A stretch of DNA of 64,000 nucleotides. Origin: Siphonodentalium dalli (lineage: Eukaryota > Mollusca > Scaphopoda > Gadilida > Siphonodentaliidae). Location: NCBI GenBank assembly GCA_032622095.1, contig CP136066.1, forward strand, positions 91,719,319 to 91,783,318. Direction: 5' to 3'. A model generated the notes under the pieces. That model had not been told where the DNA came from and ran no database searches. It was given only the letters and a program-made list of their open reading frames with translations. The position numbers were made by a program, and so were the translations under genes. Shown piece after piece: positions 34,601-46,600 of the stretch. Each line of letters begins with the position of its first letter. Within the stretch, counting starts at the first letter, position 1.

Positions 34601-37600
34601 GCGTTTAGAAAAAAAACTACATTTTTAGCCGACAAGTTAAACTATTTACAAAAAGCCATTCTCGGCGTGGAGAGCCTGTCGATTTCCCCAATTTCACATG
34701 GACAATCATGTGTCAAGCTTGTGACCCAATTACCCAACAGAAATAAAATTGCAAAAATGAAATGCAGTTTAGCCAAAAGGATACCACACGAAATGATCTC
34801 CCTATGGGAGACTCGCATATATAAGAGAATGCATTGGCACAGGGTTTTTGCAAAATTTCAAGAAGCTCCAGTCATTGAAGGGTTAACTACCCCTCACCCT
34901 TACTATCCACATATCAGTGAAACAAACATGTCATAATTGTGTTTTATTATTATTATTATTGATTATTGAACATTCATTCCAATTCAATCCAAAAAGGAAA
35001 AAGTAACTAAAAACAATGTTAATTTGAGACTATAGATACTTCCCAGAAGACGAAGCCAAAGCAGAATGAGGTCCCCAGGGGTGAACTTGGTGATGCTAGC
35101 CCACTGTGTGGGATAACATCACTAAATTCACCATCTGCGGGACCTCATTTTGGAAATGACAGACACACTATTTGCAGGCTTGCCCACCATACTCTTGCGA
35201 TTTATAAACAATTTTGATTTATTTTTAAATAAAATGTTCTTGATGATGGTATCCATCCAATGAGAAAAATAAAATTGTTAATTTGTTAATAGTTTTTCCC
35301 AGGGACCAGCCTAGAGGGCGACTTGGGAGATATCTTCTCCCTAAATTGTGTCACTTCTCCCTAATTTTGTCCTAGGGAGAAGCGACATATCTCTCATATA
35401 CAAGATTGCATATGTCCCTACAGCATACTTAACCCTTTCAGTGCCAAGTGCGATTTTTGTATCAACCCATATTTCCTTGATCATTTTTTCAAATTTATTT
35501 ATTATAATAATGTGATACATTGATGGAAAGAGCTCTTTGAACTCTTTCCATCAATGTATCACATTATTATAATCAATAAATTTGAAAAATGATCAAGGAA
35601 ATATGGGTTGATACAAAAATTGGACTTGGCACTGAAAGGGTTAAACTGTATTTTCTTATTATAATGGTGTATTTACTGATTATAAGGTTTTACAAATGGG
35701 CTATTGTATTGCATAATACTTAGCGCATCATAGAATGGAGATACTGGGGTGTACACTAAACTTGAGCCATTATGACTTCTCCCTGATAACAGCCCACTTC
35801 TCCCTGATATTCAAGTATTGAGAAGTGACTTCTCCCTATTTGAAATCTCTAGGCTGGTCCCTGGTTTTTCCTACAGAGTATAATGTTTAGCCTGTCTCTA
35901 TTTTAATTCTCTTCCCAGGTCTATTCGCATTGAACCAGAGAGCGTGAACTCAATAGCCATCGAAGACGAACCCCAGCAAACATTCCAGAGGATGATGTCG
36001 TGCAGCTTCGTCGGGTTGAATCCTGGACATTCGGCTGTGATTTGTCGAGATACGACTATCATGCCAGCTATAGCAGGCTTACCGGCAATCATCCCGCTAA
36101 TCTTCACACCTGCTGCCGAGTTCAGGTAATTTAACCTTTTCTATCCTGAATGGATTCTCCCATTCACTCATAAAGGTATACATTGGAATGGTCTTATTAT
36201 TCATGTGGAGGGATGTTCAGGTAATAAAAGCAGACGACAGACAAACAAAAAGAGATCACAAATGAAGATGGATTTCCATTAATTAATGGGAAATGTTCAG
36301 ATAATATGTTCAACAAACGACCTAAGAGTATTTAGTATATAAAGTGTTAATATGATCATTCAGGGACCCCTATAGCCAATGGGGAAGATCTCAGTCTATA
36401 CAACCAACTGTGAATATTTAATTTTAGTTAAATCAGCCCAAAATATAAGCCCAAAATTTGAACATCTACAGTAATGCTCTAAATAATCGACTCCTTAACC
36501 ACAGCAGAATTATGGCTTGTTGCCATTCATCAGAAAGCTCTCACCGAGAGCTTTCCGATGAAGGGCATCAAGCCATATTTCCGACTAAATCCTGAAAAAT
36601 TACCCATAATTCTGCTGTGGTTAAGGAGTCGATTATTTAGAGCATTACTGTACAGTAATAAAAGTAGATTTATTCAAGGAATCGCAACTGTGTTCTTATT
36701 TTTGAAGGGTTTACCTGATCACTTCAAATTGGGTTTTCATCATAGCATCTTTGCTTTACTTGACAAACAACGTAACTGCCACGTTACCAGGCAAACGCGT
36801 GGCTTTTAGCAATGTCTACTTTGATAGCTTTCAGAATAGGTCAATAGGACAATAACAATCAATGTGTGTATTCTTGAAAAGTATTATATTGTTATTTATC
36901 CACCGCTCACTCCAAATGTTTAACAGTCACTTTAAAGTAAATTACCATCTGTCTTACTTCACAGAACGGACAGGAAGAGAACTCGGTACACTGGTGCCAT
37001 ATGCGGGCTGGGATACGATTCAAGAACAAATGCTCCGATCTTACCAGATCATGATATGGAAATCACGTTTGATGTACAACTAGATCTTTCTGATATCTGC
37101 CAAGTAAGTTTGTTGATTTAGTTTTTTGGAGGGTTTCACTGCTGCTTGGCAAATTTATCAAATTAAAAAATAATTCACATTTGGCAAAAATTATTCGCAT
37201 TTGGCAAAAGTTTTTGGCAAGTGAGTTCTCATTTCCACAAGAGAGTGGATACTATTAATTTAGAATTGGCTGCTTAAACCATTTACAGTAATGCCCTAAG
37301 AAATCAACTCCTTAACCACAGCAGAATTATGAGAGCTTTCCGTTGAATGGCAACAAGCCATATTTCAGACTAAATCCTGAAAAATTACCTATAATTCTGC
37401 TGTGGTTAAGGAGTCGATTATTTAGGGCATTACTGTATGTCATGAATGCCCCATATAAGGCCAAAAAAAGGGGTTTGATTCTCAGGCATAGCCTCATCGA
37501 AAAACATGGCCCTCGTTGGACCATTTTATTTTTATTTTGGATTTCACCGTAGTTGTAAATCGGTAACATGAAAATAGGAAATTGTCACATGGAAATTAGT

Positions 37601-40600
37601 TATGTTTCGAATAGGAGCTAGATACAACTGTGTATGTGTGGGTATTCAACAAAAGACCATAAGCAGCGATAAATATCAGGTTTGTTGTCACCAATGGCTG
37701 TCCAATCACCCAAGTTTATTGGTCAAATGTGTTGAAATATTTTGTAAAAGATCAGCAGGATGTTAGATATTTGACCTTTGCAACCTTTGCACAGTAAGTA
37801 AGTAACACTGCAAGATAGAGCCTTCTTTGAAGTGGCCATGGTTAACTGTAAGAGTCAATTTCCCATAAACCCCATTAATTTCAGCCTGATATCATTTGGC
37901 AAAAAATATTTTAGTATGGAAAAAGTTAATTTTGGGCCAGTGTGGACCATGTTGGATTGATTCACAATTATCTTAAAGCAAATGTTTAGAAATCGGTTCT
38001 AACCTAATCAAATAATTCACAGGACCCTTATAAAATAAAAAATTAAATCTCTGTCCACTACTGACCATAAATTTAACTAGACACATTTCATCTTGTATTT
38101 GATATTTCCCCTTGTTATTTCTGATAATATTAAAGTTTTCTATTTGGTTTGTTTAAATTGTATGTAATTGAGTTGTACAACAGACTGTTTAAAATTCCTT
38201 TAACACATTGTCATGAAAAGTCATTTTCCACACCCAACAAAGTTGATAATTCTAGAGTAGATGCATAAATACCTGCCTGCAGGCCTTAAAAAGTGTAAAT
38301 AAAAACATACCTGCTGGGTAATTTTGCAGATATTAAAAGAAATATAAAAACCTGCCTGCCTTCCCATTTTGAAACAGATAATCAACTTTGTGTGGCCTAA
38401 TTATTAAGCTTTGTTATGTTGTTACTTCAGATAAATGGTGTGCGGTTAGCTGTTGACATAATTCTAGAGAAGGATGCACAGGTCTCAAGTTGGGGACCCG
38501 ATGCCGTACAGCGGTTACAGGAAGAGGCACGCAAGAAACTACTCGAGTAAGTCAAACATTCATGCAGTTATTGTCATATAAATAAAGAGAATATCCAGTT
38601 AACATAGATAGTACGCATGCCCTTATATAGACCAAGTTTCCTTCGACGTAAACCATCTAGTGAAATCGGTAGGGATGATACTGATTTACGTCGAAGTACA
38701 GTCGCCTTCCTCTTCAAAATTAGGGACTTTACGCCCAGATCCAGGTGGTGGGATTTTTCTTAAATTTTAATCGACTTTATAATACAAATCAATACAAAAT
38801 GCAAGATTTATCGGAAAGAGTGATATCTTATGGTCATAAGGATGTATTATAATCTAAAATTTATGTTTAATTACGCACAGAATATGCTATGTAATTAGGA
38901 ATAACTTGCGTTTGATCTGTGATTGTTAATGCTAAGATAATACCCGAACTGTTACAAAGTCATGATGTCAAATGAGTTTGTTTTCTTTTGAAATTATGTA
39001 ACCATTGTGATAAAATATATATTTTCCATTATATTTCTAGTTTCATTTGACAACTCTTGTGGAGTTCAGACCAAATATAAATCTTTCTTTGGAATAAACC
39101 AAGTTACTTTCACAATTGTGACATTTTATTACTGTCATATTGGTGTTTTTAGATGAGAGGTAGACATAAGTCCTCTATAGAAAAGAAAGGCAACCATAGT
39201 TTGATGTAAACCAGTATTCGAGGCTGAATTTAGTGTGATATTTGCAGATTGAGGTCCCCTGAGGGTGAATTTTGTGATGCTATCCCGCAAGGTGGGCTAG
39301 CCCCTATGGGAACCTCATTATGCTCAGGCCTCATCTTTTGGAAAGTATCTATAATCTCAAATTAACATTGTTTTTAGTTCTTTTTTCCTTCTCTTCAGTT
39401 TCTATATCTAATTTGCAGAAGATAAAATGCATGATCAAGGTCACAGGTATTATAGACGTCAGCATTTTTCTCTACAAAAGCAACATTTTATTTTTTATTG
39501 ATCTGTAATTGCAGCACTATGTGACCAAATAATCATAGTTTTCAAAAAAGTTTGGTTCGCCGTCGTATTTGAGATTAGTGAACACAGAAAAACATTTAAA
39601 GTTGATAAATCAAATTTATTTGGTTGGTACCCGAAACGTCTGTCCAATGAAAAATAAAAAAATAAAACAATCCAACCCCTAAATCACCGAAATCTATACT
39701 CTAATCATCAAACTAAATAGCCCTATTGTCAAACAGACGTTATTTCACGAAGGACAGATAATTTGGGTGTGGTACTCAACATACATCGAGTTTAATAACG
39801 ATTTTTGTCTTTTTTTTCCGTCAGTTTTACATGATTCTTTTCGGGGCAGGCCATTTTGAAAGTGCGAAACAAACTCGAAAAACGCTGCAGTAAATGACTC
39901 CAAAATGAAATAATTTTACATCGATAAAAAAAAATGTTTTATCTAATTCCTTATCTAGTGGGTATTATATATAGACTGCATGATTTTTGTCATTAAGAAT
40001 GCCGGATATAAATTAAAAGAGAGATATTAAAATTAATTTAATAAAGTTCAAGTTAGTTTCGCTTTCAGTTTTGCAAAATGGCCTCACGCGAAAAGAAATC
40101 TGTAAAACTGACGAAAAAAAAGGACATAAATCAGCATAAATCGTTATTAAAATCGATGTATGTTGAGTACCACCCCCAAATTAGCTGTACTTCATGAAAC
40201 AACGTCTGTTTGACAATAGGGCTATTTAGTTTGATGATAATAGTATATATTTCGGTGATTTAGGGGTTGGATTATTTGATTTTTCATTGGACGGACGTTT
40301 CGGGTACAAAAAAATAAATTTCATTGACAACTTCGAATGATTTTCTATGCTCACTTGTTTAAAGTACGACGGAAAGCTAAACTTTAACAAAAAATATGAT
40401 TACTTGGGCACATAAAATGCTAGAATTCCAGATCAATTTGATAAAAAAAATTGCTTTTGTGAGGATGATTTTTGACCTCCTATTTCACTATCAGCCTTGA
40501 TACTTAGCTTTATATATTTTTATTAATTTTTTTTTTGGCCAAATACATGTGATCAAGGTGACTAATGGGTGAACATCACCAACTTCAACTGGGGAATTTC

Positions 40601-43600
40601 AATCTGGTCCTAGGTCTCCCTTAGCAGTTGAGGCCTAAGCAGAATGAGGTGAATTTTGTGATGTTATCCCGCTCTGTGGGATATCATCACTAAATTCACC
40701 CACTGGGGACCTCATTCTGCAAATGACACACACTATTTGCAGCCTTGATGACCACATTGAAACTACTATTAATTATTCCCCCTTTTTTTTTTTTAAAAGG
40801 GGGGTATACTGTTTTGCACCTGTCCGTGCGTCCGTCTGTCGTCCGTCCGATGTCTGTTCATGTCATAACTTAAACAGTAGTGCTCGGATCTCAATGAAAT
40901 TAGGTATGGATGTTCACTATTATGAGGACATTAAATAGAGGGTTCCATCGTTTTGTTCGGATTTTCCATTCTAGAGTTATTCATCTTTGTTTATCTTGAA
41001 ATGTTGGATTTTTGGTCCATCTGGTGTCTGTTCATGTCATAACATGAACAGTAGTGCTCGGATCTCAATGAAATTTTGTATGGATGTTCACTACTATGAG
41101 GGCATTCAATAGAGGGTTCCATCGTTTTGTTTGGATTTTCCATTCTAGAGTTATACATCTTTGTTCATCTGGAAATGTTGGCTTTTTGGTTCGTCTGTTG
41201 TCTGTTCATGTCGTAACTTCGACATTTGTACTGGGATCTCAATGGGATTTGGTATGGATGTTCACTACTATGAGGACATTAAAATGAGGGTTCCATCGTT
41301 TTGTTCCGCTTTTCCATTCTAGAGTTATTCATCTTTGTTCATCTGGAAATGTTGGCTTTTTGGTCCGTCTGGTGTCTGTTCATGTCGTAACTTCAACAGT
41401 TGCGCTGGGATCTCAATGGAATTTGGTATAGATGTTCACTGCTATGAGGACATTCAATAGGGGGTTCCATTGTTCTGTTCTGCTTTTCCATTCTAGAGTA
41501 ATTCATCTTTGTTTATCTGGAAATGTTGGCTGTTTGATCCATCTGATGTCTGTTCAGCTCATAACTTGAACAGTAATGCTCGGATCTCAATGAAATTTTT
41601 TATGGATGTTCACCACTATTCTCTGAGGACATTTAATGGCACATTCAAATGTTTGTTTTGGTTTTTTGTTCTATAGTTATTCATCTTTGTTTATATGAAA
41701 ATGCTGAGTTCTGGGTCCATATGTCTGAGTATAGCCATCATAAGTTATAGATGTGCCCACACTAGGCGGTATGCCACGAGGGGGTATGCACCGGACGACA
41801 GTCCATCTCTTGTTGATTCAATAATTAACCTTCATTATTGCAGGTTAGTGCAGTCAAGGAGAGATGTAATTGAACAAAAGAACTATGAACGACCATATCA
41901 ATGGAACCAGGTATGTAGTCTTAAGAACTATGAACGACCGTATCAATGGAACCAGGTATGTAGTCTTAAGAACTATGAACGACCGTATCAATGGAACCAG
42001 GTATGTAGTCTTAAGAACTATGAACGACCGTATCAATGGAACCAGGTATGTAGTCTTTATCCCTTTACCCAACAAAACGGCCAGAAACGCCCAAATAAAG
42101 CTTCAACAGCCTAAAATATCTTCGGTCTGTCTCAATAACACCATACAAATATGGGTATCATTGGAACCGGCTCATTGACCACATTGTGATGGTTACAGTT
42201 ATGCCCTGTGCCAATGCATTCTCTTATATATGCGAGTCGACCATAGGTCGCCTCGCATATATAAGAGAATGCATTGGCCTAAAAAAAATTGTTTTTTAAC
42301 ACTTTTTATAATATTTTTCTACATTCTTTGACAATTTTATCATTTTTAATATGTTTTAAGCCAATGCATTCTCTTATATATGCGAGGCGACCTATGGTCG
42401 ACTCGCATATATAAGAGAATGCATTGGCAAAGGGCCGTTCTGTTGGGTAAAGGGTTATACCATGTGTCATTTTGAAAATGTATCATGTTATGTATATATC
42501 CTCAAATTGTGTGGTTATGGAATTACACAGTCTTGTGGGATATAATCTTCAAAATAATGAATAGATGCGTGGTTTGTCCGTGACCGGAAATATTGATCCT
42601 AATTTGCCCGTGGTTGTAAACTTATAAACTAACCTAATGACGTCTGTCTGGAATAGGCCCCAACGGTCTCTCTTGACTCTCGATGTGATAAGATGTAGCT
42701 ATGGAATTGGAACTCAAATGAATATTTTACATAGGGATTTTGATATTTATATAGTCCCGGGAACTTCATATCGAATATCACTGCTAATGAGCTCGGCTTT
42801 GTGACTACAGACCGGAATGTTCGTCTGATCATCATAAAAGTTAGTTGTGGATGTTAATATTGATAAGTAGATGGGGAACAAGTCATTTTGGGGTCATTCG
42901 GCCATAAAACATGGCCACCTGCAGCCATCTTGGATTTAATAACTAAATACTTTGGCACAGGCTACAGGTCGTACCTTTGGTCAGATCATCATGAAATTTG
43001 TCATGGATGTTAACATTAACATGTAGATGGGAAACTGGTCATTTTGGGGTCATTCGGCAAAAAAACTTGACGGCCAGCAGCCATCTTGGATTTAAAAAAT
43101 CAATCCATTAGCACGGGCTACAGGTCGTACTGTTTGTCTGATCATCATAAAATTTGTCATGGATGTTAATATTGACATGTAGATGTGAACGAGTCATTTT
43201 GAGGTCATTCGGTCATGAAACATGGCCGCTGGCAGCCATCTTGGATTTAACTTTTTACATGACTAAATCATTTGGGACGGGCTACAAGTACTTTTTGTCG
43301 GATCATTATGAAATTTGTCATAGCTCTTGATATTGACATGTAGATGGAAATGAGTCATTTTGGGGTCATTTGGCAAAAAATATATAAAAAAAACATGGCT
43401 GCCAGCAGCCATCTTGGATTTCAACATTCAATTCATCATTCCATTCATTGCTCATAACAAAAATTTAACTTGTTTGCAATGTTGAGCTACATATACAGTG
43501 TCATGGACACTTCCATTGAGTAATTTCCAAGTTATATGTGTGTTTTATTTTTGGTGTAATGTTCTATTTGTCTTTGAATATATGCTGCTACGGTTGCATG

Positions 43601-46600
43601 GCTAGTTTGTAGTGCTATATTTATAATGTCACCATTTGTTGCATTTATTGTATGTGCACATTTTTCTATTTTTGTAGGTGAAGAAGGAGGATCTAATATC
43701 TGTCTCTGCCGATGAGATTGGGACATACCTGCTGAACCTCCACTCTGGAATCAAGCTGCATGGAGCAGATATTCCGAGTGAAGAGGACACTCGTAAATCC
43801 AGGTTACTCAAGCATGAAAAACAGCTCCATCAGACCGCCAACAGGTGAATACAGTTTCATCTACACAATACAATCCCTTAACTGAAACTTTTTGACTTTC
43901 CTTATTCTTTATCATTCAACTGACTGCTCAACATAACATTAAAGGTACTCAATCCGATTAGATGGTCCCCATATCATCAGATTCCAGCAACAACAACATT
44001 TTTTGAAATACCGCTTCAGTTATCAGAATCGATTAATTGCCCAAAAAATAATGCTAAACACAGTCAACTATAGTATAAAATTGCCCAAAACCTGTTATCA
44101 ACTTTTGTTTAATGAAATTTTGCCAGTTTGTGAAACATCTGACAGAAAAAAGCCACTTGATTTTAGAGTTATCCATCTTCATCCTCAATTTGGTCTGAGA
44201 CGTTCTTCTTATCGACTGTTTACTGGGCCACGGAAAATTATCGTTGGTGAAAAGTTATAGATTTCAAAAATCGATATCTAATAACTCGGTTGGGTCTGAC
44301 GATTTCTGACTGAGGTATTCACCTATTCGAATTAATTAACCCTTTCATGACTGGAGTTGCGCTTGTGCAGCATTAATGATCCTGTGCCAGTGCATTCTGT
44401 TATATATGCGAGTCTCCCATATATAAGAGAATGCACTGGCTGACAAGGTCAAGGTATATAATTTTAGGCCAGTGTATTCTTATATATATATGTGAGGCTT
44501 ACTATGGGAGACTCACATATATAAGAGAATGCATTTAAACAGGGTTTCACAAAATTTCAGGAATCTCCAGTCATGGAAGGGTTAATTTTAAATTGAAAAA
44601 TATTTAACCCTTTACCCAATAAGGATATTATCAACATCACTACCCTCAACCAACAGTGAAAGAAGATAACGTCGCCATCCCAGCCAACGAATCTCTTAGC
44701 CGACGTCAAATTATTGGGAAGAAATCAGTATTTATGGCATTATGTTACATCATTGATGTTGTTTATCTTGATCTTGTTTCCAGAGTCGTGAATCCCCCCT
44801 ATAATATTGTATGAATATTTATTTGTTTTTTTATTTATATTGAGATTTATGATAATGTCAATGTAAAAAACAAAGAAAAGGTTATTTTTTTTATCAACAT
44901 TAATTTCACAGTTGGCAAAAAACATCATGAAATTGGGTGAGTTTTAATATATCAATGTTTAAGAAATGGTACATAAATACATCATCAAGTGGCATATTAT
45001 AATTCTTGGATATTTTCATATGAATGCAGTTACAATTATCGCCTTTATTAGCTAAACTATTGTCATGATATCATTGATGACATTTTATACATTTTTTTTT
45101 TACCTCTATTAATCAGTCTTGAAATGGCATTGATATTGTAACCTTGACATTGCTGCTATTAGCCAATGTCAATACCTTCAAAAATTTATAAATATAAATA
45201 AAATAATTCCTTCATGCCTATTACAGTCGAGAAAAGTACTTTCTCTTAGTGAAATTTTGAGCAATCATATCCAATATAAAATAGCAAGACATTTCTTAAA
45301 ACGCAGATAACTAAACTATAAATTCAATTATCATTTTGAAAAATGGCCCACTATGTGCAATTTTAACTACGCCGCCAATGTCTCGTGTGTGTTCAAATAA
45401 AACATACCAGTACATAATGTTTACTAAGTCATTTCTTTGATTTTTAATATCACAATCAGGCGAACTGACCAGAGTTATCCCAGTCTTAATGCGTAGTGGA
45501 TATGAACTTTAGTACTTACACAAGAAACAAATATTCAAGCGATGATAACAACCCCTCTCGTGAACCTAACACGTCAAGTACTTGAGTTTGACCCAGTTAT
45601 GATATCTCGGTACATTTCCAATTCCATGCATCGTTAATTGTCCATTGTAAATTGTCAAGTCAATAAATTTTGAAAAAGATTGAATGGCTATATAGGTCAA
45701 TAAAATACTTTCCCTTTGTGTATATCTGAGGTATCAAACTAATTAAAGGTACTAAATCTGATGAGACGCTCCTAAGTTACTATTTCTTTGCTTCGGGAGT
45801 AAAAAATATTTGTTGAAGTCGAGAAACCCACCCGCCAAAGCTCAGAGTGATCAGGTATCGATTTTTTAAGTTTGTTATATCTCCAGATGTGTGGTATTCA
45901 AATGGAGGGTCTCAGACAAAATTTCGAATGAAGATGGATAACTCTAAAATCAAGTGGTAATATGGTCAATACTTTAGTGATAATACGGCCATATTTTGTT
46001 GAACAAAATGTTGATAAATAACATGTTTTGGGAAATTTGATGCCATAGTTGACAGTGGTTAGTATTATTTTGTTGCAATAAAATCGATTCTCATAACTAA
46101 AGCGTATTTTGAAGAAATGTTGTTGTATTTGATGCTACTCAAATTCAATATATTTTAAATAATATATAATAAATATTTGATATAAATAATTGAAATTTTT
46201 CTTATAGATTTTAATGACTGATAGAATAAATGGTAACTCAACAGGGAAACCATCCCAGTTAAGCAAACGTTGCGCTGAGATTTCGCTTAACAATGACCGA
46301 TCTAGGGCTGGGAAAATAGATTTATTTTTTGCTATTTGGAAATGAAAATCACTATCTAAGAAATAATACATAATCCAATATAAATATCAATTTCAAGTTG
46401 TCAGATGTTACAAAGATTGACCTCGCGACCCTGCAGAATGCAGTTAACAAGAAAGCGTCTCTGACAATAGGTGACAAATGGGAAGTTGGCTTCACTAATA
46501 TTTTGTGGTTGGAAATAAAAGCTATATGTCATAACCTGAATAAAAAGTACAAAATAAAGTGAAAATTAGCTATATTATGATCACAGATAACAAAACTATT

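Follow-up and report, generated by a model that had tools for sequence, protein, structure and literature searches.

The TDRD9 locus and its array of splice donors

The window analysed here is a stretch of 64,000 nucleotides of the genome of the scaphopod Siphonodentalium dalli. On its forward strand lies part of a TDRD9 gene, whose 5′ start is outside the window, together with a tandem array of four repeat units at the end of one exon and a miniature inverted-repeat transposable element (MITE) at the right edge of that array (Table 1). The original prediction that the host gene is TDRD9 is borne out by two lines of evidence: 204 residues of the family-specific C-terminal region align with residues 1170-1376 of Spindle-E, which we take to be the arthropod TDRD9 (PDB 9nhs_G; E 1.2e-30), and an earlier exon encodes a Tudor domain above the cut-off (PF00567; E 4.4e-8, 33.7 bits against 23). 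Spindle-E is also the top match of an earlier stretch of exons in the window (9nhs_G; E 6.9e-19). Upstream on the same strand are sequences resembling DEAH helicase motifs I, III and V; our own pattern for motif II had no match. Two fragments that we joined match DEAH helicases, with RNA helicase A entries first and Spindle-E (9nhs_G) among the matches (E 4.4e-19), and the Pfam DEAD model scores 25.9 bits against a cut-off of 26. The C-terminal exons form a chain with compatible phases throughout, and the protein that they encode matches only the five exons of the window in the 2.2-Gb genome.

Table 1. Features of the TDRD9 locus (window positions) and of further donor arrays at exon ends (positions on contig C1)
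Feature	Position	Strand	Details and basis
TDRD9 exon (IRIEPESVNSIAIEDEPQQ...)	35919-36125	+	Exon scan with position weight matrix (PWM); alignment with Spindle-E 9nhs_G
TDRD9 exon (...TRYTGAICGLGYDS...)	36965-37103	+	PWM exon scan; Spindle-E alignment
TDRD9 exon (INGVRLAVD...)	38431-38546	+	Phases match both neighbouring exons; Spindle-E alignment
TDRD9 exon ("18" in the original prediction)	41844-41910	+	Ancestral end taken to be donor 1; exon scan; Spindle-E alignment
Repeat copy 1	41878-41922	+	Donor 1, GT at 41911; Tandem Repeats Finder (TRF), repeat search, side-by-side print
Repeat copy 2	41923-41967	+	Donor 2, GT at 41956, +15 residues; TRF, repeat search, frame check
Repeat copy 3	41968-42012	+	Donor 3, GT at 42001, +30 residues; TRF, repeat search, frame check
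Repeat copy 4	42013-42057	+	Donor 4, GT at 42046, +45 residues; TRF, repeat search, frame check
Left target-site duplication, TTAT	42057-42060	.	MITE end search; copy comparison
MITE, TTAA-type (presumed piggyBac-like) family	42061-42454	.	394 bp; two internal palindromes
Right target-site duplication, TTAT	42455-42458	.	MITE end search; copy comparison
Next TDRD9 exon (VKKEDLISVSADEIG...)	43678-43844	+	Acceptor TTTTTGTAG, entry phase 0; exon scan; Spindle-E alignment
GANP/MCM3AP array (L055/L072/L073)	C1:15566083-15571382		112 CAG|GTATGT donors across 5.3 kb
HSD17B10-like exon and array (L075)	C1:41211900-41212700	-	35-bp units; array at C1:41212373-41212612
Probable C-type lectin exon and array (L077)	C1:245068900-245069600	-	36-bp unit, GMLAALCMMAAP per unit

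The exon that carries the array is labelled exon 18, a number that comes from the original prediction. In agreement with that prediction, its end has been duplicated in tandem together with the splice donor: TRF reports a period of 45 with 4.0 copies and 99% matches at 41878-42057, the direct repeat search likewise finds the copies head-to-tail, and the four copies align over their whole length, each unit of 45 bp consisting of 33 exon-end bases and 12 intron bases. The donor sequence CAG|GTATGT is identical in all four, and each donor keeps the reading frame of the preceding exons into the exon that begins at 43678, so that the predicted set of four in-frame donors stands; the joined exon chain is open whichever donor is taken. 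The sole difference among the copies, which had also been foreseen, is an A in copy 1 where copies 2-4 share a G, and this is silent: the codons CCA and CCG, which differ at their third position, both encode Pro. At the outer limits of the array, neither the left flank (ACAA) nor the right flank (TATC) extends the match to the unit ends in the side-by-side print, which indicates a duplication junction without microhomology. All four occurrences of CAGGTATGT on the forward strand of the window fall within the array, and only 6 of the 3448 forward-strand GT sites score as high as its donors, the four themselves being among those 6 (splice scores here and below come from a simple PWM that we typed in). 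The array is far beyond chance expectation, and a 213-bp query covering it has one match in the 2.2-Gb genome.

Aligned with Spindle-E, the product of donor 1 runs across the junction without an insert, QWNQ|VKKED facing EWKS|VPEDE. Donor 1 is therefore taken as the ancestral donor, on the evidence of one distant relative, and the products with 15, 30 or 45 additional residues would be derived.

A TTAA-type MITE at the edge of the array

The last base of the array (42057) is also the first base of the target-site duplication of the MITE, an element that did not figure in the original prediction. Its 22-bp terminal inverted repeats read CCCTTTACCCAACA[A/G]AACGGCC, and the family has at least 40 near-full-length copies in the genome, including the one in the window (40 were scored of 3386 first-look candidates). 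Around the 29 other copies fetched, TTAA is present on both sides in 21, on one side only in 6, and TTAT is present on both sides in 2; since TTAA mostly flanks these sister copies, the element is regarded as a TTAA-type MITE, and from this duplication we presume it to be piggyBac-like. The copy in the window differs from the family majority at 8 of 393 positions, the majority being a rough one because the alignment took ten of the other 29 on the wrong strand. In the array, copy 1 differs from the other copies at a single one of 45 bases, and either event may have come first. A break at the MITE may have started the duplication, which is only a lead given how abundant the family is. In the window, TTAACCCTTT occurs at 26 sites (12 on the forward strand and 14 on the reverse), from which TTAA-type elements seem to be dense there.

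Donor arrays elsewhere in the genome

Arrays of this kind recur at other genes, a point beyond the original prediction. When the genome was searched for CAGGTATGT repeated three times at intervals of 29-59 bp, 1261 + 1753 matches resulted; those listed, running from contig C1 into C2, comprise ten arrays on C1 and one on C2, and all eleven were inspected. Judged by homology, 3 of the ten listed C1 arrays begin at exon ends (Table 1). In GANP/MCM3AP, 92 of the spacings between donors are of 45 bp and 19 of 61 bp, which suggests two distinct duplication junctions at one exon end. Against solved GANP chains, the 36-residue exon reaches a best E of 0.0021 (whole sequence; 0.028 over the stretch). 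Reading on in the phase of this exon, a stop is reached 440 nt into the array, and only the exon's own donor, or another near the start of the array, would allow a full-length protein. A sequence resembling one terminal repeat of the MITE lies some 30 bp upstream of the acceptor of the GANP exon.

The exon of the second array matches 3-hydroxyacyl-CoA dehydrogenase (E 7.6e-30) and the type-2 enzyme (E 1.9e-29), for which we assume the name HSD17B10; the exon has only one match in the genome. Its own donor, CACCCG|GTATGT, is accompanied by 7 CAG|GTATGT donors that differ from it by one base before the junction. The downstream donors read GMYK-stop, out of frame, and the first, own donor must thus serve for the full-length protein. 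The third array is in frame and open in the phase of its exon, which is probably that of a C-type lectin on a sub-threshold match (PF00059; E 6.6e-4, 20.8 bits, under the curated cut-off of 22.6). Two further arrays without homology support, L043 and L076, might be exon ends as well, and no exon was recognised at L046, L053, L054, L074, L078 and L079, L074 being judged on only 24 bases before the first motif. L053 and L054 (C1, 14.800 and 14.846 Mb) are near-identical arrays of a 38-bp unit with the donor motif, lie 46 kb apart and are apparently a segmental duplication.

Triple matches are more numerous for two donor 9-mers, CAGGTATGT (3014) and CAGGTAAGT (1559), than for four control patterns, namely the same patterns reversed (780 and 295, respectively), one scramble (539) and its reverse (225). 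These counts are of matches rather than arrays, and long satellites dominate those listed, so that no claim of donor enrichment is made.

Comparison with known systems

A donor-bearing variable number tandem repeat (VNTR) at an exon-intron boundary is of a kind already in print, human ABCA7 being the one described case that we found. Its intron-18 VNTR consists of 25-bp units, about 12 to 427 in number, with the first GT serving as the exon-18 donor (PMC5954066). As in that gene, the TDRD9 array has tandem units, each with a donor, and the coding exon has its canonical donor in the first unit, to judge from the sequence. An ABCA7 transcript that keeps one unit, in which the donor of the next unit is used, is seen; such transcripts amount to 2 ± 1%, on our reading of "respectively" in PMC5954066. 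This figure understates the use of donor 2, because keeping one unit shifts the frame and exposes the transcript to nonsense-mediated decay. The ABCA7 repeat is a known polymorphism whose expansion raises skipping of exon 19, and the same source gives such skipping as 12% in cell lines, rising to as much as 45% in a brain area in which the alternative transcripts jointly exceed the canonical one in 90% of cases (PMC5954066). By comparison, the TDRD9 array has 4 units of 45 bp, in frame, with 33 coding bases in each.

The Rogers AGGT model and the 24-bp arrays of fission yeast (PMC4974935), as far as described there, share with TDRD9 the tandem copying of splice signals and AG|GT unit boundaries, but in TDRD9 it is the donor side that is duplicated, without a pyrimidine tract, and no new intron is predicted. 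Exon 1 of ER-alpha and intron 4 of DOK7 (PMC6002489, PMC5585400) resemble it in that neighbouring donors compete for U1; in the accounts cited these are pairs of natural donors outside repeats, spaced by 33 or 11 nt, as against four identical donors 45 nt apart in a repeated context.

Which donor is used

With moderate confidence, we consider the array to be probably a length-variable minisatellite seeded on a donor, with donor 1 giving most of the mRNA and a minority of transcripts carrying 15, 30 or 45 more residues. Most transcripts would use donor 1 as the ancestral site and a minority donor 2 or a later one, adding those residues between QWNQ and VKKED; leakage to donors 2-4 would be tolerated since it is in frame. 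That donor 1 is favoured in TDRD9 is what we infer from the usage in ABCA7 and the arrays of the HSD17B10-like gene and GANP taken together. The same evidence weakens the original prediction insofar as it implied equal use of the donors: the last donor in the HSD17B10-like and GANP/MCM3AP arrays cannot yield a full-length protein, and one-unit retention in ABCA7, in the text cited above, is low.

Several considerations on the other side concern donor 4. Pyrimidine-rich sequence downstream of a donor might help that donor, and the sequence 3′ of donor 4 is pyrimidine-rich MITE sequence, which might thus help it. Between two comparable donors, the intron-proximal site is described as favoured, and the U1 footprint as covering 23 nt upstream and 12 downstream (PMC6002489). 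The 45-nt spacing exceeds this footprint, and all four sites could be occupied together, in which case donor 4 might win; for the same reason the precedent of ABCA7, with its 25-bp unit, may not transfer. The loss of one-unit ABCA7 transcripts to decay and the extensive skipping of exon 19 also count against the preferred reading. Intron-proximal preference would then favour the product with 45 additional residues, and, the whole array being in frame, TDRD9 would contain it constitutively as exon, with a fixed three-unit repeat. We regard this outcome as unlikely, given the about 2% one-unit retention reported for ABCA7 (PMC5954066) and a last donor that is incompatible with full-length protein in the HSD17B10-like and GANP arrays; the lack of an insert in Spindle-E also speaks against it, though it bears on ancestry rather than present usage. 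Substantial use of several donors in a regulated, functional length series, as four identical in-frame donors might suggest, is very improbable and has no support so far: the single difference among the copies is silent, about a third of the units possible at this donor would be in frame and open (see below), and the comparable HSD17B10-like array does not keep the frame.

Copies 2-4 are identical across 45 bp and short tandem arrays are error-prone, so the copy number could be an artefact of assembly, by collapse or expansion. This seems improbable, as copy 1 has a distinct base, the stretch matches the genome once, and an array of 180 bp would fit inside single long reads, if long reads were used. 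It is scarcely credible that the units are 45-nt mini-introns or recursive splice sites, each running from GT to AG, as the CAG|GT at every unit boundary would allow. At 45 nt, such an intron would be unusually short for an animal, and the mRNA would equal that made from donor 1. In fission yeast genes, introns do lie across tandem 24-bp AGGT units (PMC4974935, in the part consulted), but the CAGs of the TDRD9 array have no pyrimidine tract and score -2.0 to -2.1 with the PWM, against 4.2 and 5.1 for two real acceptors. Recursive splicing was rejected on these poor acceptor scores (a score, not an assay), and for intron gain by tandem duplication they likewise leave no usable acceptor inside the array.

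Origin of the array, frame and selection

In the preferred scheme, with donor 1 as the main site, the TDRD9 exon end, its donor and 12 intron bases would have been duplicated in tandem to form the seed of a minisatellite. Copies 2-4 may then descend from one copy with the G; alternatively, copy 1 may later have mutated to A. The 45-bp unit being open in the phase of the exon, every donor would yield an in-frame mRNA, and strong selection was maybe escaped in this way; we infer that the array is neutral. Its copy number probably varies between individuals, given how nearly identical the copies are and the precedent of ABCA7.

The in-frame openness of the array is not remarkable. At the TDRD9 donor, 140 of 410 possible units (20-60 nt, with at most 15 intron bases) are in frame and open, and among four other donors, one has 157 such units of 1312 and the remaining three have 0 of 1312 each. 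Openness was accordingly dropped as a sign of selection, about one third of the possible units at the TDRD9 donor being open anyway. Unit lengths divisible by three occur in 3 of the 4 exon-end arrays including TDRD9 (GANP also having 61-bp spacers), against one in three expected, and four arrays are too few to argue for selection. An RNA-fold structural switch in the array region was also considered; with z 0.45 and 136 of 200 shuffles at least as stable, the array is no more stable than shuffled sequence, and no such switch is proposed.

Significance

TDRD9 is a germline transposon-defence gene, and any effect of the array on its piRNA function is speculation. For this animal more generally, it is possible, if doubtful, that exon-end donors recurrently seed minisatellites (TDRD9, GANP, HSD17B10-like, lectin), that splicing is fixed on the first donor even where more than 100 identical ones are present, and that arrays in multiples of three leak repeat-coded segments into conserved proteins. 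The cause of intron-proximal preference between comparable donors is described as not known in the text drawn on here (PMC6002489, citing Roca 2013). Natural arrays at conserved exons, with four donors in TDRD9, seven beside the gene's own in the HSD17B10-like gene and 112 in GANP, and with mixed frames, make donor choice measurable through junction reads, and such arrays could be a route by which conserved proteins gain repeat segments.
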